A stretch of 64,000 nt of DNA from an uncultured Holophagaceae bacterium (GTDB lineage Bacteria > Acidobacteriota > Holophagae > Holophagales > Holophagaceae): positions 1 through 64,000 of the forward strand of contig CAIZZF010000016.1 in assembly GCA_903937385.1 (NCBI GenBank), in the 5' to 3' direction. The first letter of the stretch is position 1. Every line of letters begins with the position of its first letter. The notes under the pieces were generated by a model, which had not been told where the DNA came from, did not search any database, and saw nothing but the letters and a program-made list of their open reading frames with translations. Made by a program: the position numbers and the translations under genes. Shown piece by piece: positions 48,079 to 60,656 of this stretch.

Positions 48079-48280
48079 GTGCGGACTCGGGCATCGGGCA
48101 AGGGTTGCCCCCCCTCTATGTCGCAGCAGCATCTGATTGCCAAAAACCGTCACAAGCCACCTCCTTGTCCCCTTTTTGTCATGAAAAAAAATGGACCTTC
48201 TGCCACCATCCAGTCGACACGATTGACGCACGCAACAATACGCCTGGGATTGCCCGCGGCCATCCCAAGGAAAGCCCTTG

Positions 48281-50893
48281 ATGAAACCCTTCCCTCATCC
48301 TCCCCGGTGCCTCCGGCGCCACCCCATGACCGGGGTCGGCCTCCCGGCAGGAGTGTTGTTTCTCTGTCGCTCGCTTCTGCTCGCCCTGCTCCTGACGGCG
48401 TCCCTTGCCGCCGAAACGCCACTCCGGTTCGCCGTCCTGGCCTTCCGCCCCAAGGCGCAGGCCCTGGCGCAGTGGCAGCCCCTGGCCGAGAACCTCGAGC
48501 GAACCCTGGGCCAGAAGGTCGAGCTGAGCGCCTACAGCTACCCCGAGCTGAATAGCGCCATGGCCGCCAAGGCCGTGGACGTGGTCCTCACCAACCCGGG
48601 GCACTTCGTCGCACTCAGCCACCAGTTTCACCTGTCGGCCCCCCTCGTCACCCTGGTCAGCCAGGAAGGGCCGCACGCCCTGGCCTCCTTCGGCGGCGTG
48701 ATCTTCACCCGGGCCGATGCCGCGGGCATCAACACCCTCGCCGACCTTGCAGGCAAGCGCATCGCCACCGCAGATACCCAGTCTCTCGGCGGCTATCAGA
48801 TGCAGGCGTTCGAGCTGGCGGAGCGAGGCCAGCAGCTTCCCACCGGTGGTCGCCTCGTCCTCACCGGCATGCCCCACGACAACGCCTTCGAGGCAGTTCT
48901 CGCGGGCCGGGCCGAGGTGGGGTTCGTGCGCAGCGGGGTGCTTGAGGCCATGGCCCAGGAAGGCCGCCTGGACCCGGCCCTCGTGAAGGTCATCCACCGC
49001 CAGGACCTTCCCACCTTTCCTTACGCCAGCTCCACCGCCCTCTACCCCGAATGGCCCGTGGCGGTGACCTCCCAGGTTGAAGAACAGCTGGCCCGGAGAC
49101 TGGCCATCGCCCTGCTGTCCCTGCCAGCCCAGAGTCCCGCAGCCCGCAGCGCGGGCATCCATGGCTTCACGGTCCCGGCCAACTATGGGGGCGTGGAGGC
49201 CGTGCTGCGGCGGCTCCGCCTCCCGCCCTTCGACGCGGCCCCCGATTTCACCCTGGCCGACATGTGGCGAAGGCATCGCCCCGAGATCGCGGCCTTTGCC
49301 GTGCTGCTGCTCCTCCTAGCGGCGACCAGCGCCGGACTTGCCCTCCAGAACCGCCGGGTCCGCCAGGCCCGCCTTCGTTTCGCCACCCTGTTCGAGCAGT
49401 CACCGGAACCCATGTGGATCATTGCCGACGGCCGCTTCATTGACTGCAACCCCGCAGGGGTCCGCATCTTCGGCCATGCTGACAAGGTTTCCCTGCTGGC
49501 GCGCCTTCCGGACTCCCTGTCGCCCCCACACCAGCCCGACGGCGAGGCCTCACGAAGCAAGGCCCAGCGCCTGCTCTGCGCGGTGGCAGAGGGCGAGCCC
49601 CAGCGCTTCGAGTGGGTCTACCTCCGAGCGGATGGCAGCCCTTTCAGTGCCATCCTCAGCCTCATGCCGACCACCCTGGAGGGGCGCCCGGTGAGCCTGG
49701 CCGTGGGCCACGACATCTCGGACCTCAAGCGGGCGGAGGAGGAAAGGCGCCTGCTCGAGGCCCAGCTCCACCAGGCCATGAAGCTCGAGAGCCTGGGCAG
49801 CCTGGCCGGCGGAGTCGCCCACAACATGAACAACGTGCTGGGCGCGATCCTGGGTCTGGCCTCCAGCCTGCGCACCCAGGCTGTCCCCGCCTCTCCCACG
49901 ACCAAGAGCCTCGACACCATCGTCAGCGCCTGCCTGCGGGGCCGCGGCGTAGTGAAGGGCCTGCTCTACTTCGCCCACAAGGATCTCCAGGAGGAGCGTG
50001 TCATCCAGCTCAACGATCTGGTCCGGGAGATGGCCCTCCTCCTCGGGCAGACCATGCTCAACCGAGTCCAGCTGCAGCTGGATCTGGACGAGAACCTGGG
50101 TGAGTTCCACGGCGATGCCGGAGCCGTGAGCCATGCCCTCATGAACCTCTGCGTCAATGCCATGGATGCCATGCCAGCAGGCGGGACTATCTGGATCCAG
50201 ACGCGGTGCAACGCCGAGGGTGGGGTCGTGCTGGCCGTGCGCGACTCCGGCGAGGGGATGCCCCCCGAAGTGCTGGCCAAGGCCATGGAGCCCTTCTTCA
50301 CCACCAAGCCGGAGGGCAAGGGCACGGGGCTGGGCCTGCCCATGATCTACGGCACCATGAAGGCCCATGACGGCAGGTTCGAGCTGAAGAGCCAGCCGGG
50401 CCTCGGGACCGAGGCCACCCTCACCTTCCCCGCCTCCCGGGTGGTCCGTGCCACGCCAGCCCCGGACCTTGCCGCTGGCCCCACGGCCTGCGGGGCCCCC
50501 TCGCTGAGCATTCTCCTGGTGGATGACGACGACCTCATCCGCGAGTCGGTCACGGAGGTCCTACAGTTCCTGGGGCACCGGCCCTTCAGCGCCCCGGGTG
50601 GGCAGGAGGCCCTCCGCCTGCTGGAGGATGGCCTCCCAGTGGACCTGGTGATCCTCGACATGAACATGCCCGTCATGAACGGCGCCGAGACCCTGCCGCG
50701 GATCCTCGCGCAACGCCCCGACCTGCCGGTCCTGATGGCCACGGGGTATAGCGAAGAGGACATCGTGCCCCTGCTCGTGGGCCGGCCCAACGTCCAGAGC
50801 CTGCGGAAGCCCTTCAGCATCCAGGAGCTCTCGGACCGGCTGGCGGGCTTGCGGACCGGGGCCACCGAGCCCGCCAGCGAGGCCTTGACTTAA
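48281..50893 (+). CDS. Hybrid histidine kinase with PhnD-like periplasmic sensor
   Basis: An 870-residue hybrid kinase. After a signal region, residues about 45-310 form a periplasmic-binding domain of the PhnD/phosphonate type (LRFAVLAFRPKAQALAQWQPLAENLERTLGQKVEL, TNPGHFVAL, GVIFTRADAAGINTLADLAGKRIAT). A membrane helix (about 325-348) leads to a PAS domain, the H-box GGVAHNMNNVLGAILG with His near residue 514, the ATPase motifs NLCVNAMDAM, DSGEGMPP and GTGLGLPM, and a receiver with Asp near residue 793 (DLVILDMNMP). I chose the ATG at 48281 because AAGGAAAG precedes it. The ligand is unknown. It is convergent with the giant cytochrome gene, 44 bases apart. Confidence 0.92.
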   Translation: MKPFPHPPRCLRRHPMTGVGLPAGVLFLCRSLLLALLLTASLAAETPLRFAVLAFRPKAQALAQWQPLAENLERTLGQKVELSAYSYPELNSAMAAKAVDVVLTNPGHFVALSHQFHLSAPLVTLVSQEGPHALASFGGVIFTRADAAGINTLADLAGKRIATADTQSLGGYQMQAFELAERGQQLPTGGRLVLTGMPHDNAFEAVLAGRAEVGFVRSGVLEAMAQEGRLDPALVKVIHRQDLPTFPYASSTALYPEWPVAVTSQVEEQLARRLAIALLSLPAQSPAARSAGIHGFTVPANYGGVEAVLRRLRLPPFDAAPDFTLADMWRRHRPEIAAFAVLLLLLAATSAGLALQNRRVRQARLRFATLFEQSPEPMWIIADGRFIDCNPAGVRIFGHADKVSLLARLPDSLSPPHQPDGEASRSKAQRLLCAVAEGEPQRFEWVYLRADGSPFSAILSLMPTTLEGRPVSLAVGHDISDLKRAEEERRLLEAQLHQAMKLESLGSLAGGVAHNMNNVLGAILGLASSLRTQAVPASPTTKSLDTIVSACLRGRGVVKGLLYFAHKDLQEERVIQLNDLVREMALLLGQTMLNRVQLQLDLDENLGEFHGDAGAVSHALMNLCVNAMDAMPAGGTIWIQTRCNAEGGVVLAVRDSGEGMPPEVLAKAMEPFFTTKPEGKGTGLGLPMIYGTMKAHDGRFELKSQPGLGTEATLTFPASRVVRATPAPDLAAGPTACGAPSLSILLVDDDDLIRESVTEVLQFLGHRPFSAPGGQEALRLLEDGLPVDLVILDMNMPVMNGAETLPRILAQRPDLPVLMATGYSEEDIVPLLVGRPNVQSLRKPFSIQELSDRLAGLRTGATEPASEALT

Positions 50894-50937: not shown

Positions 50938-53900
50938 TTAGTTCCAGATGTTTCCTGTGGTGGTGTGGGTCTGGCCGTGGCAGGAGAGGGCGCAGCCGCC
51001 CCGGCCCTGCGTGGCGTTCACGGTGTAGGTCAGGGCTCCAGTGGCGGGCGTGGCGCCGCCCCCGAACTTGACGGTGTCGCTGGAGAGCTGGTCCGTGGCG
51101 GTGCGGACTGCCGTGGTGTCCAGGTACCTGAAGTGGTTGACCACCCCGGTGCGGTTGTTGGTGCTGGTGGACATGTCGTGGCAGTGGTCGCACGTCTGGT
51201 TGTGGGCGGTGGGGTTGTTGTGGCGCCCGGTGGCGTCGTTGTATTGCGTGGCGGTGGAGGTGATCTTGTGGCAGGTGATGCAGTAGGTGTTGGCATTCAC
51301 CGTGAGGGTGCCGGACTGCCAGCCGGGAGTGACCTGGCCGCCGTGGCAGCTGATGTTGGAGCAGGTGAAGGCCGAGGCGCTGCTGACGAAGCCCGCGGTG
51401 CTGCTCTGGGCGTTGAAGGTGGCGTGGACGGCCACGGAGGCGGGTCCCGAGCTGATCGGTGAGGCCACCCGCTTGTTGGCGTTGCTGTAGTGGGTGTTGT
51501 TCGTGTCCCCAGGCAGCGACTTGAAGTGGCAGGCCTGGCACTGGGGGTAGGCGGCACTCGCCAGGCCCGTGGGCAGGGCCGGGGTGCCCCTCGTGAAGGT
51601 TCCCAGGGCCAGGTGCTTGGGGTGGGAGCCCTTGAGGTTGGGCCAGGCACTCCCGGTGGGACCCTGGGTGGTGAAGCTGGCGCCCACGTGGCAGGAGAGG
51701 CAGGTGCCGGCCGTCATGCCCGTGCCCAGGGGTGAGCCGAGGGTGTGGCACACGGTGCAGACGGGGCCACTCTTGGTTGTCGCACCCGTCTGGTCGTGGC
51801 AGTTGCTGCACTCCCCGTTGAACTGGACCAGGGTGACCGCCTGGTGGGGGTTGCCCCCGCTGCTGAGGTCGGTACTCAAGAAGGGGATCGGATGGGCCGC
51901 CCCCGAGCCCTGAGGGGCGTTCCAGTGGTAGGCCGTGGCCGTGGGCGTGTGGGTCTGGGCATGGCAGACCACCGCACAGCCGCCATCAGCTTCAGCATAG
52001 GGGGCGGTGACGCTGTAGGTCATGGCGCCCGAGATCGGGTAGGTGGCGTTGCCCGTCTTGAACTTGATGGTGCCGCTGGGCAGCTTGCTGGAGCCGCCGA
52101 CGTTGGTGCTGTTCAGCTCGGCGAAGTGCTTGACCGCGCCGATGCTGGCGTTGGCGGCGCTCATGTCGTGGCAGAGGGTGCAGTCAGCGGTGCCCGCCGT
52201 GCTGTGGGTCCCGGAGGAATGGCGACCCAGGGCATCGTTGTACTGGGCGGGCTGGCTGCCTCCGTTGATGGCGTGGCACTTGGTGCAGTCCGTGGTGCTG
52301 ACGATGCTGTTCGCCGCCGTCCAGGCTGGGGTGGTCTTGCCCCCGTGGCAGCTCACCGTGGCGCAGGTGAGGGCCGCAGGACTGAAGGTCGCGGAGCCGC
52401 CCGTCTGGGCGTTGTAGGTTGCGTCGAGGGCCACGGCCCCGGGACCCGTGAGGGGGGCCACCCGGGCGTTGGCATTGGTGTAGTGGGTGCCGGTGCCCGT
52501 CCCGCTGCCCGCATGGCAGGTGTCGCAGGTCAGCGTCGTGGGCAGGGCCAGGTGCTTGCCATGGGACCCGGCGATGCTGGGGTAGCTGGCGCCCTCAGGC
52601 CCCACGGGCAGCCCGGCGCCGCCCACATGGCAGGACAGGCAGGTGCCGCTGCCCGTGGCCACTGCCACGGGATTCGCCAGTGAGTGGCAGACGCTGCAGC
52701 TGGGGGCGCCGGTCACGGGCGAGGTGCCCGAGGTGGCATGGCAGGTGCCGCAGTCCGCGGTAAACGTGGCCTGGGTGGCGGTCAGGTGGCCGTTGTTCTG
52801 GGTGTCGACCTGGCCCGCGAGGAAGGGTATGCCGTGGGGCGCCCCGCTGGCCGTCCAGGTCTCCACGGTGCTGACATGGATGTGCGTGTGGCAGGTCAGA
52901 GCGCAGCCGCCGTTCCCCTGAGTCGCGCCCGTGGTGGAGTACGTCCTCGCGCCCGAGACGATTGCCGCGTCGAAAGCGATGGTTCCGCCCGGCAGCTGGT
53001 CGGCGGGGCTTCCCGTGGAGACACCGTCCACCGCTGGTGTGTCCAGGTACTTGAAGTGCGCCTGTGCCCCCAGGGAGCCATTGCCCATGCTGTGGCAGGT
53101 GGTGCAGGCGATGGCGTTCGCCGCCGTGGTGGCGTTGTGGGTGCCGCTGCTGTGCCGTCCGAACGCATCATTGAACTGCGTGACGGTCCCCGCGGAGGTC
53201 GCCACACCGTGGCACTTGGTGCAGTCCGTGGCGCTGTTGAGGAGGCCTGTCTGCCAGCCCGGCGTGACCTGGCCGCCGTGGCAGCTCACGTTTGAGCAGG
53301 TCAGGCTGGCTGGTGTGAAGGCGGGGCTGCCGCCGGTCTTGGCGGCGAAGGTGGTACTGACGGCCACCGGCACCGGTCCCGAGGGCACGGTGATCCGCGC
53401 GTTGGCGTTGGTGTAGTGGGTCGTCGTGCCCGAGCCGCTGCCCGCGTGGCAGGTGTCACAGGTGAGCTGGGTGGCCAGACCCATGTGCTTCGCGTGGGCG
53501 CCTGGGATGCTGGGGAACCCCGAGCCGTTGGGCCCAAGGGTGGGCACGGCACTGCCGCCATGACAGGACTGGCAGGTGCCGGAGCCGGTGGCAAGCACCG
53601 TGGGGTCCGCCAGCCGGTGGCAGGTGCTGCAGAGGGGAGCCCCGACCAGGGGAGAGCTGCCCGTGTAGGCATGGCACACGGCGCAGTCCGAGGCGAAGCC
53701 TGCAGCCGTGACCGTGAGGTGGCCGTTGAGCTGGGAGTCGTTCTGGCCACTCAGGAAGGGGACCGGATGCGCGGACCCGCTGGCAGTCCAGGTCTCATAG
53801 GTGGGCGTGTGGATGTGGTTGTGGCAGGTCAGGGCGCAGCCGCCATTTCCCTGGGTACCGCTGGTGACCGAATAGGTCCTTGACCCCGTCACGATCGTCG

Positions 53901-56900
53901 TGTCGAAAACGAGGGTGCCGCTGGGCAGCTGGTCCGCCGGGAGGCCCGTAGCCGTGCCGTCCACCGCGGGAGTGTTCAGGTACTTGAAGTGCGCCAGGGC
54001 ACCGCTGCTGCCATTGGTCATGCTGTGGCAGGTGGTGCAGGCGATGGTGCTGCCTGCTGCGGTGGCATTGTGGGTGCCCATGCTGTGGCGACCGAAGGCG
54101 TTGTTGTATTGGGTGCCCGCCGGGGCCAGCGAGACGCTGTGGCACTTGATGCAGTCCGTCGCGCTGTTGATGCTGCCCGCCGTGGTCCAGGCCGGGGTGG
54201 TCTGGCCGCCGTGGCAGCTGACGTTGCTGCAGGTCAGAGCGCTGGGCGTGAACGCCGCCGTGGCTGCTTTGCTGTTGAAGCTGCTGTTGATGGCGACCGG
54301 CGCCGGTCCGGCGGTGCTCCGGGAGTTGGCATAGTGGGTCGCCGTGCCCGACCCGCTGCCCGCGTGACAGGTGTCGCAGGTCAGGGTCGTGGGCAGGACC
54401 ATGTGCTTGGCATGGGCCCCGGCGATGCTCGGGAAGGCAGCCCCTCCGGGTCCCGTGGGCAGACCGGCTGTGCCGCTGTGGCAGGACAGACAGGTCCCCG
54501 TGCCGGTGGCCGTCAGGGTCGGGTCCGCCACCTTGTGGCAGGTGTTGCACAGGGGTGCGCTCGCCGCAGGGCTCGTCCCCGAGATGGCGTGGCAGCTGGA
54601 ACAATCGCTGGTGAACGTCGTGGCGCTGGCGGTGAAGTGGCCGTTGTTCTGGGTGTCCGTCTGCCCCGCCCCGAAGGGCACGGGATGCGGCGTCCCCGCC
54701 GCAGTCCACGTGCTCGCCGCCGCCGTATGGAGGTGGGTGTGGCAGGTCAGGGCGCAGCCGCCATTCCCCTGAGTGCCGGTGGTGACCGAATAGGTCCTTG
54801 ACCCCGTCACGATCGTCGCGTCGAAGACGATGGTGCCGCTGGGCAGCTGATCCGCCGGGAGGCCCGTGGCCGTGCCGTCCACCGCCGGGGTGTTCAGGTA
54901 CTTGAAGTGCGCCGCGGCCCCGCTGCTGCCATTGGTCATGCTGTGGCAGGTGGTGCAGGCGATGCCGTTGGCGAGGGTGGCAGCGTTGTGGGTGCCCAAG
55001 GCGTGGCGGCCGAAGGCATCGTTGAAGTTGGTAGCCGTACCGACACTGGCCGCCACGCTGTGGCACTTGGTGCAGTCCGTCGCGCTGCTGATGCTGCCCA
55101 CCGCAGTCCAGGCCGGGGTGGTCTGGCCGCCGTGGCAGCTGACGTTGCTGCAGGTCAGGGCACCGGGCGCGAACGCCGCAGCGGCGGCTTTGCCGTTGAA
55201 GCTGCTGCTGATGGCGACCGGCGCCGGTCCAGAGGTGCTCCGGGAGTTGGCGTAGTGGGTCGCCGTGCCCGACCCGCTACCGGCGTGGCAGCTGTCGCAG
55301 GTCAGGGTCGTGGGCAGGACCATGTGCTTGGCGTGGGCCCCGGCGATGCTCGGGAAGGAGGCCCCCCCGGGTCCTGCAGGCAGGCCCGCCGTGCCGCTGT
55401 GGCAGGACAGGCAGGTCCCCGGGCCGGTGGCTGGCTGGGTCGGGTCTGCCACCAGGTGGCAGCTGGTGCACAGGGGTGCACTCGCCGTCGGGCTCGTTCC
55501 CGAGATGGCGTGGCAGCTGGAGCAATCGCTGGTGAACGTCGTGGCGCTGGCCGTGAAGTGGCCGTTGTTCTGGGTGTCCGTCTGCCCCGCCCCGAAGGGC
55601 ACGGGGTGCGGCGTCCCCGCCGCGGTCCAGGCATTCACCGCCGCGTTATGGAGGTGGGTGTGGCAGGTCAGGGCGCAGCCGCCATTCCCCTGGTTGCCGC
55701 TGGTGACTGAATACGTCCTTGACCCCGTCACGATTGCCGCGTCGAAGACGATGGTGCCGCTGGGCAGCTGGTCCGCCGGGAGGCCCGTGGCCGTGCCGTC
55801 CACCGCCGGGGTATTCAGGTACTTGAAGTGCGCCGCGGCACCGTTGCTGCCATTGGTCATGCTGTGGCAGGTGGTGCAGGCGATGCCGTTGGCGAGGATG
55901 GCGGCGTTGTGCGTGCCCAAGGCATGGCGGCCGAAGGCATCGTTATAGTTGGTGACCGTGTCGGCGCTGGCGGCCACGCTGTGGCACTTGGTGCAGTCCG
56001 TCGCGCTGTTGATGCTGCCAGCCGTGGTCCAGGCCGGGGTGGTCTGGCCGCCGTGGCAGCTGACGTTGCTGCAGGTCAGGGCGCTGGGCGTGAATGCCGC
56101 GAGGGCGGCCTTGCTGTTGAAGCTGCTGCTGATGACGACCGGTGCGGGTCCAGAGGTGCTCCGGGAGTTGGCGTAGTGGGTCGCCGTGCCCGACCCGCTG
56201 CCTGCGTGACAGCTGTCGCAGGTCAAGGCCGTGGGCAGGATCATGTGCCTGGCGTGGGCCCCGGCGATGCTCGGGAAGGAGGCCCCCCCGGGTCCCGCGG
56301 GCAGGCCCGCCGTGCCGCTGTGGCAGGACAGGCAGGTTCCCGTGCCGGTGGCCGTCAGGGTCGGGTCCGCCACCTTGTGGCAGGCGGTGCACAGGGGTGC
56401 GCTCGCCGCCGGGCTCGTTCCGGAGATGGCATGGCAGCTGGAACAATCGCTGGTGAAGGTCGCCGCTGTGCTCGCGACATGGGCCCCACCGAGGAAGGGG
56501 ACCGCGTGGTTCGGCTGGCCCGGGCCATTCACATGGCAGGCTACGGCATTGGCGGAGGCGGAGAAGCAGCTGGGCGCGGTGGCATCCGGGGCGATGCGCC
56601 CCTTGGTGCCGTCATGACAGAGCGCGCAGGCCACGGCACGGTTGCCCGCATCCCGGTGGGAGGCGGCGTAGGCAGGGAAGGCACCCGGGGCCTGCACCCA
56701 GCGGTCGGCGTGGGCCCTCGCCTGGACATGGCAGCTGCTGCACTTGGTGGCCGCGGCCGCCCCGCCCTCAAAGCCGGTGGAGCCCGGGTTGCCGTGGCAG
56801 GCCTGGCAGGAGGCCAGATCCTTTTTCGCGGCGATGCCATGGAAGGCGGCGCTGGTCGCCGTGGTCCAGACGGAACCCAGCGCATGGGGCGCCGCCTCGG

Positions 56901-58896
56901 CCCCGTGACACAGGGTGTTGTTGAAGCAGCCCGGGGCCGTGCCTGCTGGAGCGGGCGTCGCGGGATGCCCCGCCGGGTTGGCCACAGCGCCGGGGTAGTG
57001 GCACTGCACGCAGACCGGTGCATTCGTGGCATCCGTGGTGGCGTGGTTGGAGCCCGAGGCGTTGTGCCAGGGCTTCGCCGGGTGCGGGGCCGCGACCCCA
57101 TGGCAGGTCGTGCAGGCCTTGGTGGTCCCGTCCGAGGCGGTCAGCCCCGAAGCGAAATTCGTCCCGTGGCAAGCCTGGCAGGAGGCCAGCCCGCCGCCCG
57201 AGGTGCTCTGGCCCAGCTTCGCCCGGAGACCGTGGCTACCCGCCAGGGCATAGCCGGGCTGGGTGTTGTGGTGGCAGGCGGCCGTGAAGCAGCCGGGCTC
57301 ACTGAAGGGCCCGCCCGTCAGCTGGGCGCCATGGCAGATCTTGCAGGTGCTGAGCCCGGCCAGGGCACTGCCTGGATGGCTCGCGGTCCAGCCCGCGGGA
57401 TGGACGCCGCCGTTGCCAGCCCAGGTATAGGAAGCGTGGGTCTTGCCGTGGCAGACGATCGTGCAGGTCTTGGCTGTGGGGCTGTAGCTGCCGCCGGTCA
57501 GGGCGATGGTCTCCGCCGCCACGCCTTCCATGGCCGCGGTGCCCAGGTTTGTCAGGTGGCCGAGGGCCCCGCTGCTTCCGTTCGTCATGTTGTGGCACTC
57601 GGTGCACAGCAGCCTGGCCGACGAGTTCATGTGCAGCGCGTGGAACCCGGAGTAGACGCTGTTGCTCTCGGGTAACCCTGGTGCCGTCCCCAGGGCGTGG
57701 CACTTCGTGCAGTCGGCGGCCGTGTTGAGGCTGCCTGATGCGGTCCAGGCTGGCGTGGTCTGGCCGCCGTGGCAGCTCACGTTGCTGCAGGTGAGGGTCG
57801 TCGGATTGAAGGTCGCCGGGCCTGCATTACCGCTGTAGGCGCTCAGGAAGGCCACGAGGCCCGGCCCTGTGCGCAGGCTGTTCATGCCGGCACGACCATC
57901 GGCATGGTTGTAGTGGGTCAGGGTGCCGGTGTCCGCGCCCTGGTGGCAGGTCGCGCAGGTTCCTGCCACGCCCGCCAGGGCATTGTGCTTCCCGTGGGCC
58001 CCCGCCACATTCGGGAAGCTGGCGCCCGTGGGCGGCTTCTCGTGGCAGGAGGCACAGCTCGCCACGGTCAGTGGCGAGCCCGCCTGATGACAGGTGCTGC
58101 AGAGCGGCGCCGACACGACCGGCGAGGCTCCGGACACTGCGTGACAGGTCGCGCAGGTGCCATTGAACCCCGCCTGGGTGACGCCGGTGTGCTCGCTGCT
58201 AAGGAACGGAACCTGGTGTGTGGCCTGGATGGTGCCATGACAAAGGGTGTTGTTGGTGCAGCCCGGGGCCGTCCCAGCCGGGGCCGGCGTGGCGGGGTGC
58301 CCGACTGGATTCGCGGGCGCTCCAGGGAAGTGGCACTGGGCACAGACGGCGGCATTGGCGGGATTGGTGGTGGCGTGGTTCGATCCGGCAGCGTTATGCC
58401 AGGGCTTCGCCGGATGCGGCGCGGCCACACCATGGCAGCTGGCGCAGGACTTGGCGGCCACTCCCCCTGAAAAGTCCTTCCCGTGGCAGATCTGGCAGGA
58501 AGCCAGGCTCCCGCCGTCGGTCCCGGCAGCCAGCTTGGCCCGGGTGCCATGGATGGCCACCGTGCCCCAGGCAGGAAGGGTCTTGTGGTGGCAGAGCATG
58601 GAGGCACAGGTCGGGACATTGCTGCCGGCGGTGGCAACCGCCAGCTGGTGGCACTTGGTGCACGCGTCCAGCCCCGCGATGGCGCTGCCAGGATGGCTGC
58701 TGATCCAGCCGGAAGGGTGGTAGTTCTGGCTGAGGGTCACGGTCGGCGTGCTGGCACTGCCCCCCCCACCACCTCCGCACCCAAGGAGGGCCAGCGAAAG
58801 CGTGAAGGCCAGTCCGAACAGGCCAACCAGTCCTGCCAAGCGCTTCCAGGCGAGGAGGTCGATGGCAAATTTTCGATAACCTTGCCTTGGGGGCAT
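50938..58896 (-). CDS. Giant multihaem c-type cytochrome lipoprotein
   Basis: A 2652-residue exported protein with about 72 C(x)nCH haem-binding motifs by hand count, about 53 of them CxxCH. Others are CxxxxCH (about nine, such as CSNVSCH), CxxxCH (seven, such as CALTCH), two CX5CH (CTNNTLCH, CFNNTLCH) and a doubtful CX9CH. The start at 58896 gives a basic N-terminus, a membrane segment and the lipobox LALLGC, so it should be lipid-anchored. Module order: six motifs (58.66-58.24 kb), eight (58.17-57.44), six (57.35-56.91), four (56.83-56.53), then six octahaem modules. These resemble the Geobacter CxxxxCH...CxxCH family. An extracellular electron-transfer role is inferred. I preferred this start over the ATG at 58932 because it has a GAGG site and the latter sits at the inferred transcription start. 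Confidence 0.93.
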   Translation of the reverse strand: MPPRQGYRKFAIDLLAWKRLAGLVGLFGLAFTLSLALLGCGGGGGGSASTPTVTLSQNYHPSGWISSHPGSAIAGLDACTKCHQLAVATAGSNVPTCASMLCHHKTLPAWGTVAIHGTRAKLAAGTDGGSLASCQICHGKDFSGGVAAKSCASCHGVAAPHPAKPWHNAAGSNHATTNPANAAVCAQCHFPGAPANPVGHPATPAPAGTAPGCTNNTLCHGTIQATHQVPFLSSEHTGVTQAGFNGTCATCHAVSGASPVVSAPLCSTCHQAGSPLTVASCASCHEKPPTGASFPNVAGAHGKHNALAGVAGTCATCHQGADTGTLTHYNHADGRAGMNSLRTGPGLVAFLSAYSGNAGPATFNPTTLTCSNVSCHGGQTTPAWTASGSLNTAADCTKCHALGTAPGLPESNSVYSGFHALHMNSSARLLCTECHNMTNGSSGALGHLTNLGTAAMEGVAAETIALTGGSYSPTAKTCTIVCHGKTHASYTWAGNGGVHPAGWTASHPGSALAGLSTCKICHGAQLTGGPFSEPGCFTAACHHNTQPGYALAGSHGLRAKLGQSTSGGGLASCQACHGTNFASGLTASDGTTKACTTCHGVAAPHPAKPWHNASGSNHATTDATNAPVCVQCHYPGAVANPAGHPATPAPAGTAPGCFNNTLCHGAEAAPHALGSVWTTATSAAFHGIAAKKDLASCQACHGNPGSTGFEGGAAAATKCSSCHVQARAHADRWVQAPGAFPAYAASHRDAGNRAVACALCHDGTKGRIAPDATAPSCFSASANAVACHVNGPGQPNHAVPFLGGAHVASTAATFTSDCSSCHAISGTSPAASAPLCTACHKVADPTLTATGTGTCLSCHSGTAGLPAGPGGASFPSIAGAHARHMILPTALTCDSCHAGSGSGTATHYANSRSTSGPAPVVISSSFNSKAALAAFTPSALTCSNVSCHGGQTTPAWTTAGSINSATDCTKCHSVAASADTVTNYNDAFGRHALGTHNAAILANGIACTTCHSMTNGSNGAAAHFKYLNTPAVDGTATGLPADQLPSGTIVFDAAIVTGSRTYSVTSGNQGNGGCALTCHTHLHNAAVNAWTAAGTPHPVPFGAGQTDTQNNGHFTASATTFTSDCSSCHAISGTSPTASAPLCTSCHLVADPTQPATGPGTCLSCHSGTAGLPAGPGGASFPSIAGAHAKHMVLPTTLTCDSCHAGSGSGTATHYANSRSTSGPAPVAISSSFNGKAAAAAFAPGALTCSNVSCHGGQTTPAWTAVGSISSATDCTKCHSVAASVGTATNFNDAFGRHALGTHNAATLANGIACTTCHSMTNGSSGAAAHFKYLNTPAVDGTATGLPADQLPSGTIVFDATIVTGSRTYSVTTGTQGNGGCALTCHTHLHTAAASTWTAAGTPHPVPFGAGQTDTQNNGHFTASATTFTSDCSSCHAISGTSPAASAPLCNTCHKVADPTLTATGTGTCLSCHSGTAGLPTGPGGAAFPSIAGAHAKHMVLPTTLTCDTCHAGSGSGTATHYANSRSTAGPAPVAINSSFNSKAATAAFTPSALTCSNVSCHGGQTTPAWTTAGSINSATDCIKCHSVSLAPAGTQYNNAFGRHSMGTHNATAAGSTIACTTCHSMTNGSSGALAHFKYLNTPAVDGTATGLPADQLPSGTLVFDTTIVTGSRTYSVTSGTQGNGGCALTCHNHIHTPTYETWTASGSAHPVPFLSGQNDSQLNGHLTVTAAGFASDCAVCHAYTGSSPLVGAPLCSTCHRLADPTVLATGSGTCQSCHGGSAVPTLGPNGSGFPSIPGAHAKHMGLATQLTCDTCHAGSGSGTTTHYTNANARITVPSGPVPVAVSTTFAAKTGGSPAFTPASLTCSNVSCHGGQVTPGWQTGLLNSATDCTKCHGVATSAGTVTQFNDAFGRHSSGTHNATTAANAIACTTCHSMGNGSLGAQAHFKYLDTPAVDGVSTGSPADQLPGGTIAFDAAIVSGARTYSTTGATQGNGGCALTCHTHIHVSTVETWTASGAPHGIPFLAGQVDTQNNGHLTATQATFTADCGTCHATSGTSPVTGAPSCSVCHSLANPVAVATGSGTCLSCHVGGAGLPVGPEGASYPSIAGSHGKHLALPTTLTCDTCHAGSGTGTGTHYTNANARVAPLTGPGAVALDATYNAQTGGSATFSPAALTCATVSCHGGKTTPAWTAANSIVSTTDCTKCHAINGGSQPAQYNDALGRHSSGTHSTAGTADCTLCHDMSAANASIGAVKHFAELNSTNVGGSSKLPSGTIKFKTGNATYPISGAMTYSVTAPYAEADGGCAVVCHAQTHTPTATAYHWNAPQGSGAAHPIPFLSTDLSSGGNPHQAVTLVQFNGECSNCHDQTGATTKSGPVCTVCHTLGSPLGTGMTAGTCLSCHVGASFTTQGPTGSAWPNLKGSHPKHLALGTFTRGTPALPTGLASAAYPQCQACHFKSLPGDTNNTHYSNANKRVASPISSGPASVAVHATFNAQSSTAGFVSSASAFTCSNISCHGGQVTPGWQSGTLTVNANTYCITCHKITSTATQYNDATGRHNNPTAHNQTCDHCHDMSTSTNNRTGVVNHFRYLDTTAVRTATDQLSSDTVKFGGGATPATGALTYTVNATQGRGGCALSCHGQTHTTTGNIWN
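50941..56451 (-). repeat. Six tandem octahaem-module repeats within the cytochrome gene
   Basis: Each unit spans about 870-950 bp (roughly 290-317 residues) and carries eight motifs in the order CSSCH, CTACH, CLSCH, CDSCH, CSNVSCH, CTKCH, CTTCH, CALTCH (or close variants). Units begin near 56451, 55530, 54609, 53690, 52758 and 51806 on the minus strand. The first three are about 920 bp apart and almost identical in DNA, including the stretch GGCATGGCAGCTGGAACAAT-type and the ATTGGTCATGCTGTGGCAGG-type runs. The last three are more diverged. A seventh, older octahaem unit lies alone near 58.17-57.44 kb. Confidence 0.9.
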
Positions 58897-58935
58897 GCGG
58901 AGATCCTCGAATTTGGAACCGGTTGGATTCATCAG

Positions 58936-58963
58936 AGCATAATTGAGTCTTTTGGTTTATCAA
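58936..58963 (-). promoter_or_regulatory. Candidate sigma-70 promoter for the giant cytochrome gene
   Basis: On the minus strand, -35 TTGATA (58963-58958) and -10 TATGCT (58941-58936) are spaced by 16 bp. The inferred start lies near 58930, giving a leader of about 35 bases before the ATG at 58896 and a GAGG site eight bases upstream of it. This supports the shorter protein. Confidence 0.65.
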
Positions 58964-59267
58964 GTGCAAGACGAACGATTGTTGATTTTAAATTGATCCC
59001 CATTCTCAATGTTGATACATAGAAATATCTAGTTGCAGGAAAATTCCGCGCATAAATTTATGCATACAACCGGCCCCAGCCTGGGCAGTCTGGTGGTGCA
59101 CGCTGGCCTTCTTGAGCGCAGTCACACCAAGGGGCACCCCAGCGTGTGGTCCCCCGCCCAAGGAACTTGCAAGCCCCCAGAGACCTTCCGCTTCTGGTGG
59201 TCCTGTCAGGCTCCCCCACCGCCACGCTGCCTGGGTTTCGCCCCAGGACTCCCCTTCCTGAGGCCCC
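58964..59267. other. Divergent intergenic region with A/T-rich palindrome
   Basis: This roughly 300-base gap separates the divergent cytochrome and uraA genes. It is A/T-rich near 58960-59070 and G/C-rich afterwards. The 14-base perfect palindrome GCATAAATTTATGC lies at 59051-59064 and is a plausible operator. I see no small gene or riboswitch. The uraA ATG has a GAGG site four bases upstream. Confidence 0.6.
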
Positions 59268-60545
59268 ATGCTGCGCCGCATCATCGACGTCGACGAACGC
59301 CTGCCCATCCTGCAGACCCTGCCCCTGAGCCTCCAGCATCTCTTCGCGATGTTCGGAGCCACCGTGCTGGTGCCCTTCCTGTTCAAGGTGAACCCGGCCA
59401 CCTGTCTGCTGATGAACGGCGTCGGCACCCTCATCTATCTGGCGGTGGCCAAGGGCCGCATCCCCGCCTACCTCGGCTCGAGCTTCGCCTTCCTCTCTCC
59501 GGTCTTCGCCGTGCTGGCCTCGGGCCTCAGCTACTCCGCGGCCCAGGGCGGCTTCATCGTCTTCGGCCTCATCTTCATCCTGCTGTCCCAGGTGGTCCGC
59601 GTCGCGGGCACCCGCTGGATCGAGGTCATCTTCCCCCCCGCGGCCATGGGCGCCATCGTGGCCATCATCGGCCTGGAGCTGGCCCCCGTCGCCACCAACA
59701 TGGCGGGCCTGACCGCCAGCAGCACACCCCTGGGCATGTCGGTAAAGCTGGCGCTCATCGTGTCTCTCTCCACCCTCGGCGTGACCATCCTGGCCTCGGT
59801 GCTGCTGCGCGGCTTCATGGCTGTCATCCCCGTGCTGCTGGGCGTCATCGCCGGCTACGTGCTGTCCCTGGGCCTGGGCGTGGTGGACTTCGAGGCCGTC
59901 CGTCTGGCCCCCTGGTTCCAGGTGCCCACCCTCTACGCGCCGAGCTTCAACGTCCAGGCCATCCTCATCATCCTCCCCGCGACCCTGGTGGTGCTGGCCG
60001 AGCATGTGGGGCACCTGGTGGTGACCGGCAACATCGTCGGCAAGGACCTCGTGAAGGACCCGGGCCTGCACCGCTCCCTGCTGGGTGACGGCATCTCCAA
60101 CGTGCTCTCCGGCCTCGTGGGCGCCACCCCCAACACCACCTACGGCGAGAACATCGGCGTCATGGCCATCACCAAGGTCTACAGCGTGTGGGTCATCGCC
60201 GGCACGGCCATCATCGCCATCGTGGTGTCCTTCTCCGGCAAGCTCGCCGCCATCATCCGCAGCATCCCCGTGCCGGTCATGGGCGGCGTCTGCATGCTGC
60301 TCTTCGGTGTCATCGCCGCCGCCGGCATCCGCATGCTGATCGAAAAGAAGGTGGACTACACCAAGTCCCGCAACCTGATCCTCACCTCCGTCGTGCTCAT
60401 CAGCGGCATCAGCGGCGCCGCCGTCAAGCTGGGCACCGTCGAGCTGCGCGGCATGGCCCTCGGCACCGTCGTCGCCATCTGCCTCGCCCTGCTGTTCTGG
60501 TCCTTCGACAAGCTGGGCATCAGCACTGATGGTGGCGCCCACTAA
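59268..60545 (+). CDS. uraA: Uracil/xanthine permease (UraA family)
   Basis: A 425-residue inner-membrane transporter of the nucleobase-ascorbate family. It begins MLRRIIDVDERLPILQTLPLSLQHLFAMFGATVLVPFLF, a strong UraA signature, and shows repeated membrane segments plus PNTTYGENIGVMAITKVYSVWV, the conserved NTxYGENIG block. FLSPVFAVLAS also fits. It imports uracil or another nucleobase with protons. It is followed by tRNA-Arg 35 bases later. A xanthine preference cannot be excluded. Confidence 0.93.
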   Translation: MLRRIIDVDERLPILQTLPLSLQHLFAMFGATVLVPFLFKVNPATCLLMNGVGTLIYLAVAKGRIPAYLGSSFAFLSPVFAVLASGLSYSAAQGGFIVFGLIFILLSQVVRVAGTRWIEVIFPPAAMGAIVAIIGLELAPVATNMAGLTASSTPLGMSVKLALIVSLSTLGVTILASVLLRGFMAVIPVLLGVIAGYVLSLGLGVVDFEAVRLAPWFQVPTLYAPSFNVQAILIILPATLVVLAEHVGHLVVTGNIVGKDLVKDPGLHRSLLGDGISNVLSGLVGATPNTTYGENIGVMAITKVYSVWVIAGTAIIAIVVSFSGKLAAIIRSIPVPVMGGVCMLLFGVIAAAGIRMLIEKKVDYTKSRNLILTSVVLISGISGAAVKLGTVELRGMALGTVVAICLALLFWSFDKLGISTDGGAH

Positions 60546-60579
60546 CCCCGCCCAACCCGATCCGCTAGACTGGACCTGC

Positions 60580-60656
60580 GTGCCCATAGCTCAGGTGGAT
60601 AGAGCAGCAGCCTTCTAAGCTGCAGGTCGTTGGTTCGAGTCCAACTGGGCGCACCA
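60580..60656 (+). tRNA. tRNA-Arg(TCT)
   Basis: A complete cloverleaf: acceptor stem GTGCCCA with TGGGCGC (one G-T pair), D-arm TAGCTCAGGTGGATAGAGCA, anticodon stem GCAGC with loop CTTCTAA (anticodon TCT), T-arm GTTGGTTCGAGTCCAAC, discriminator A and genomic CCA to 60656. It decodes AGA and probably AGG. No terminator of the usual kind follows; instead an inverted copy of the 3' end begins immediately. Confidence 0.96.

Follow-up and report, generated by a model that had tools for sequence, protein, structure and literature searches.

The locus

The window (the whole stretch of DNA analyzed, 64,000 nucleotides) belongs to a Holophagaceae genome assembly of 3.68 Mb in 30 contigs. In a six-frame scan of the window, only one frame contained two or more haem motifs; it is located at 50938-58956 on the minus strand and comprises 2672 codons from stop to stop. 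The second ATG of this frame, at 58896, is the more plausible start, since a GAGG is found just upstream and the resulting signal peptide ends in LLG|C. Translation from here gives an uninterrupted lipoprotein of 2652 aa (Table 1), which agrees with an earlier note on this DNA that had read a single lipoprotein of about 2650 residues with about 72 haem motifs. We counted 53 CxxCH, 7 Cx3CH, 9 Cx4CH, 2 Cx5CH, and 1 Cx9CH motifs, 72 in all, at 36 residues per haem. All 145 cysteines of the protein (P0001) could be assigned; 144 (72 x 2) are located in the motifs and the only other one, Cys 52, is the lipobox cysteine. Shuffling the residues 1000 times gave a mean of 0.45 CxxCH motifs and a maximum of 3. 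The calculated mass of the mature protein is approximately 258 kDa, or approximately 302 kDa with 72 haems.

The gene is flanked by a uracil/xanthine permease gene on one side and by a hybrid histidine kinase gene and HtrA on the other. The kinase partly resembles the tetrathionate sensor TtrS, with a score below the cut-off. No porin gene was found next to the cytochrome gene, the neighbors being the permease and the kinase. Two upstream features were discarded. The frame 59058-60587 on the minus strand is not a gene, the real one here being the permease on the opposite strand. The perfect palindrome GCATAAATTTATGC at 59050-59063 was rejected as an operator, since the genome has no second copy of it and the sister species carries it in broken form.

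Table 1. Features of the cytochrome locus in the window.
Feature	Position	Strand	Basis
Hybrid histidine kinase, convergent, phosphonate-binding-type sensor domain (PF12974)	48278..50893	+	Pfam
Giant multihaem c-type lipoprotein, 2652 aa, 72 motifs	50938..58896	-	Single ORF, all Cys assigned, TIGR01904
O7, C-terminal-type octahaem module, ends ..NIWN	50941..51864	-	Positional clade
O6, penultimate-type octahaem module	51865..52806	-	Positional clade
O5, octahaem module	52807..53739	-	Spacing; modelled structure, mean pLDDT 76
O4, octahaem module, 81-83% identity to O2 and O3	53740..54657	-	Alignment
O3, octahaem module, 86% identity to O2	54658..55578	-	Alignment
O2, octahaem module	55579..56499	-	Spacing
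Q, four-motif module, Cx9CH at end, kept in relatives	56500..56880	-	Alignment with X
X2, second hexahaem module, 60% identity to X1	56881..57399	-	Alignment
O1, octahaem module, deep separate clade	57400..58209	-	Module tree, spacing
X1, hexahaem module	58210..58752	-	Spacing 2,4,2,2,2,5
Signal peptide to lipobox LLG|C (Cys codon 58777-58779)	58777..58896	-	Sequence
Uracil/xanthine permease, divergent	59268..60545	+	PF00860

Modular organization of the protein

As assembled, the motifs are ordered X1(6)-O1(8)-X2(6)-Q(4)-O2 to O7 (8 each), exactly the 6-8-6-4-8x6 arrangement noted earlier. The kinship claimed for the modules was also seen. All seven octahaem (O) modules share the motif spacing 2,2,2,2,4,2,2,3 and both hexahaem (X) modules the spacing 2,4,2,2,2,5, while in Q (2,2,2,9) the four motifs correspond in alignment to the final four of X. 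Pairwise identity is 81-86% among O2-O4 and 37-67% for other O modules. Exactly eight motifs were present in 113 of 115 O modules.

Each O module of the 72-motif protein contains ten histidines outside the motifs. In an alignment of 113 O modules H7, H82, H85, H108, H196, and H228 were invariant and H201 and H288 nearly so. These eight conserved histidines amount to one per haem, which fits bis-His ligation; judged from the alignment, such ligation of all eight haems per O module is likely.

The Cx9CH of Q was found at the same position in about ten relatives. An unusual conserved haem motif, Cx14CH (C-Y/F-S-A-[ST]-[YF]...CH), takes this position in L036, L038, L040-L044, L047, and L057, and its carriers include cultured Geothrix. 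The recurrence of Cx9CH or Cx14CH at one position shows a conserved site, not an error.

Profile and structure searches

The profile search with a CxxxxCH/CxxCH model that the earlier note had suggested gave a match well above threshold. TIGR01904 scored 103.4 bits over seven stretches of the 72-motif protein (curated cut-off 27 bits), compared to 28.9-43.6 bits for single matches in the genome search, and it was found three times above the cut-off in a 30-haem paralogue of the same genome. By this profile the 72-motif protein is placed in a known cytochrome group, the model accounting for only two haems per octahaem module (approximately 55-60 residues). For the whole O module, X, and Q no family of their own was found in Pfam or NCBIfam, and TIGR03507 (OmcA/MtrC) was absent from the 72-motif protein in a profile search. 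An assignment to PF22113 (MtrC/MtrF) was dropped, since its whole-protein score sums over the repeats and no stretch passes alone. A DNA pattern of CxxCH pairs, which was overly strict, gave no match across the genome.

An AlphaFold2 model of a single octahaem module, predicted without haem, was usable (pLDDT 76, pTM 0.66), whereas a model of two tandem modules was not (pLDDT 50, pTM 0.26). Foldseek found no match in the PDB to the single-module model. A sequence search of the PDB with the full protein likewise gave no match, and a profile search of the PDB returned weak NrfA matches only.

Integrity of the array and selection

An assembly artefact is an unlikely source of the array, by collapse or by expansion, because the longest exact DNA repeat inside the gene is shorter than 60 nt, the module order in the sister genome (G032) is identical up to contig breaks within the array, and a relative of 2134 aa with the architecture X-O6 is encoded in a one-contig genome. 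The sister genome matches the gene by 95.9% in its front half, and by 91.6% from O4 on, in its back half and the following DNA. The dN/dS relative to the sister species was 0.106 and 0.131 over the two halves of the gene (0.03 for the permease). Values of approximately 0.11-0.13 indicate that the protein is kept by selection and is not a decaying repeat. Between O2-O4 dN/dS was 0.34-0.36, i.e., above the values between sister species.

A series of lengths in the Holophagaceae

Named relatives belong to the Holophagaceae, many of them to Geothrix, an iron reducer. O modules were found in 44 of the 77 genomes searched from the order, and few matches were found outside it. The other 33 genomes, some of which are incomplete, had no detectable O modules, so the cytochrome is not required for the basic life of the group.

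Architectures were called with O and X profiles, and Q was deduced from the size of the gap and the number of motifs between X and O. The shortest form was X-O with 15 motifs (L037), followed by X-Q-O with 18 (Geothrix rubra L038 and the SG strains L040-L044) and X-Q-Q-O with 22 (L047, its two Q units read by eye). X-O3 with 30 motifs is the commonest architecture and includes the host's own paralogue on C25. Cultured Geothrix species carry the 18- and 30-haem forms (30 haems in G. limicola, for instance). Longer proteins were X-Q-O2 to X-Q-O5 with 26-50 motifs (L052, L051/L054, L049, and L048), X-O-X-Q-O2 with 40 motifs (L086, one-contig genome), and X-O6 with 54-55 motifs (L028 and L080, the latter with 54 in the one-contig genome G044). 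We define the family by an X module after an N-terminal lipobox, a C-terminal-type O module as the last, and a fixed O spacing, and the 72-motif protein fits this description. The variable length suggested earlier is thereby borne out, the same modules making up proteins of 15 to 72 motifs across species.

All groupings of modules rest on a single tree in which some inner forks are weak. In this tree the C-terminal, penultimate, and internal O modules of Geothrix-type proteins form separate clades. Internal O modules appear to have multiplied separately in at least three lineages (the window, L048, and L049), and a further expansion is common to L028 and L080. O1 groups with a deep clade of G023 and L048, apart from O2-O7. 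These positions suggest that an X-O-X-Q front and an O-array back were fused to give the 72-motif gene.

Two loci and other cytochrome clusters

The window gene occupies a conserved locus (uraA/HtrA) and is the second and longer paralogue in this genome. The permease adjoins the cytochrome in L039, L050, L053, and L080, and this conserved linkage defines the long-form locus; the hybrid kinase adjoins it in L018 and L031. Parts of the context were found beside long forms in G032, G044, L050, L053, L028, L023, L031, and L035. Two further genomes, G072 and G075, have the front (X-O-X-Q-O..) on one contig and the back (..O4) on another; we infer that they are one broken array, which fits with the array breaking the assembly.

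The 30-haem paralogue on C25 has a different context, kept family-wide: sensor kinase and regulator, cytochrome, DUF5777 barrel, DUF2231 protein, and alaS. The DUF2231 membrane protein has one CxxCH, ends in CLGCH, and matches just under the Pfam cut-off. In the host genome the DUF5777 beta barrel and the DUF2231-like protein are located at L006:13837-15747 (G000:C25), and they follow the 30-haem paralogue throughout the family. This pair is a candidate accessory pair for the cytochrome family.

A further cluster was observed at L007:5514-11384 (G000:C8). Its products are a decahaem OmcA/MtrC-like lipoprotein that includes a collagen-like stretch, a predicted barrel of 492 aa (beta type, no Pfam family), and two further lipoproteins, one with 5 haems and one with 12 haems in two X modules. 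The decahaem protein matches PF22113 above the cut-off and TIGR03507 below it. By gene order, the barrel, the pentahaem lipoprotein, and the dodecahaem protein follow one another as in extEFG of Geobacter (PMC6148476), and the cluster resembles a hybrid between mtr and ext conduits. Holophaga with ExtB/E-type conduits have been reported (PMC7399161), and extEFG homologues are expressed by a Holophaga near cable bacteria (PMC11748539).

A giant cytochrome lacking O and X modules was seen in an uncultured beta proteobacterium (L059:2-5557, CAINHS010000012.1). Its 5' end is cut, and the remaining 1851 aa contain at least 70 CH motifs (67 CxxCH), approximately 26 residues apart. It is possibly related to the 49-haem proteins of Burkholderiales (PMC7399161).

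Discussion

The earlier remark that multihaem cytochromes usually have far fewer motifs per chain is true of most published cytochromes, but proteins with 86 to 112 motifs are already known. Cytochromes with 86 motifs were found in Desulfuromonas acetexigens, where the protein is expressed under electrode or iron-oxide growth (PMC12133095), and in ANME-2c (PMC9012536); more than 100 motifs are present in Saprospiraceae and 112 in Paludibaculum (PMC11495043). Large cytochromes of Burkholderiales have up to 49 motifs, in numbers that vary among close genomes, and a role as wire or capacitor was proposed (PMC7399161). Giant cytochromes as such are therefore not new, but a length series built from fixed modules was not found reported; in open-licence papers we found no description of X, Q, or O modules or of such a series in Holophagaceae.

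GSU1996, GSU0592, and GSU2210 of G. sulfurreducens are likewise single chains in which similar domains bear many haems, but they are periplasmic (PMC10138318), whereas the 72-motif protein is a lipoprotein. In GSU1996 each domain has three haems, one of them with His-Met ligation (PMC10138318), in contrast to the octahaem and hexahaem modules found here. Its triheme (c7-like) repeat was not encountered, the repeat unit being eight motifs with fixed spacing, and the conserved extra histidines of the O module would suffice for bis-His ligation. The 86-motif D. acetexigens protein is, by its description, likewise a single giant chain with a comparable number of motifs (PMC12133095). Burkholderiales cytochromes, also compared by description, vary in motif number too but adjoin an OmbB-like porin (PMC7399161). 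Porin-cytochrome conduits (Mtr, Ext, Omb/Oma/Omc) cluster a porin with cytochromes, while the window locus does not. OmcS, OmcE, and OmcZ are proposed electron wires, as is the 72-motif protein, but they are small subunits that polymerize without covalent linkage, whereas the 72-motif protein is one covalent chain.

We lean toward the 72-motif protein being a secreted, lipid-anchored electron carrier, one chain whose N-terminal hexahaem end is attached to the outer membrane. The X end would be membrane-proximal, and electrons would enter there, possibly from a C8-type conduit. They may then hop through bis-His haems along the O modules, which would carry or store them outside the cell, to terminal acceptors such as minerals, humics, electrodes, or other cells. 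This agrees with 72 motifs and no spare cysteine, the conserved extra histidines, the lipobox, and purifying selection. It also agrees with the family-wide co-location of the 30-haem paralogue with the DUF5777 barrel and the DUF2231 CxxCH protein, with the two X modules in the 12-haem lipoprotein of the ext-like cluster, and with the expression of the D. acetexigens cytochrome on electrodes or iron oxide (PMC12133095). The motifs, modules, conserved histidines, lipobox, selection, and growth by module duplication were observed; haem loading, outer-surface location, direction of flow, haem continuity between modules, and respiratory function are inferred parts of the model. The lack of an adjacent porin, the lack of a fold match in the PDB, and the 33 of 77 genomes with undetected O modules speak against the carrier.

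It is possible, but rather doubtful, that the protein serves chiefly to store electrons at the envelope (as a capacitor) during periods without acceptor, its length giving capacity and not reach. One chain would have room for up to 72 electrons, module number varies freely among species, and a storage role was suggested for GSU1996/GSU2210 (PMC10138318) as well as large secreted cytochromes (PMC11495043; PMC7399161). However, storage and conduction are not exclusive, and the lipobox together with the barrel beside the paralogue suggests a defined place at the outer membrane, not a soluble pool. Drift of module number by unequal recombination, with extra modules of no benefit and the 15-30 haem form doing the work, would explain why internal modules cluster within lineages, O2-O4 being recent duplicates with a higher dN/dS. 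We consider it improbable, as comparison of the sister species shows purifying selection on both halves and the long form is found at the uraA/HtrA locus in the window, G032, G044, and L028 as well as in the contig-broken G072 and G075. That chains polymerize or bundle into filaments like OmcS, OmcE, or OmcZ appears very unlikely. The protein is multihaem, secreted, and probably bis-His ligated, and OmcZ is likewise octahaem (PMC10138318), but the 72-motif chain has a lipid anchor and is long even as a monomer. Filament structures exist, yet Foldseek with the single-module model gave no fold support for a relation to them.

The known giant cytochromes are hard to compare. The Holophagaceae proteins have one scaffold with one to seven copies of O and offer a natural length series, which includes cultured Geothrix (18 and 30 haems) and a one-contig genome (54). 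Such a series would allow conduction or storage to be related to haem number and chain length, and wire models to be tested against capacitor models. As a tentative and rather uncertain proposal, these cytochromes may be covalent electron wires, with a length that follows from how many O modules the gene encodes and that was increased independently in different lineages, with long and short loci in the same genome, so that module number may have evolved to the demand for distance or charge.
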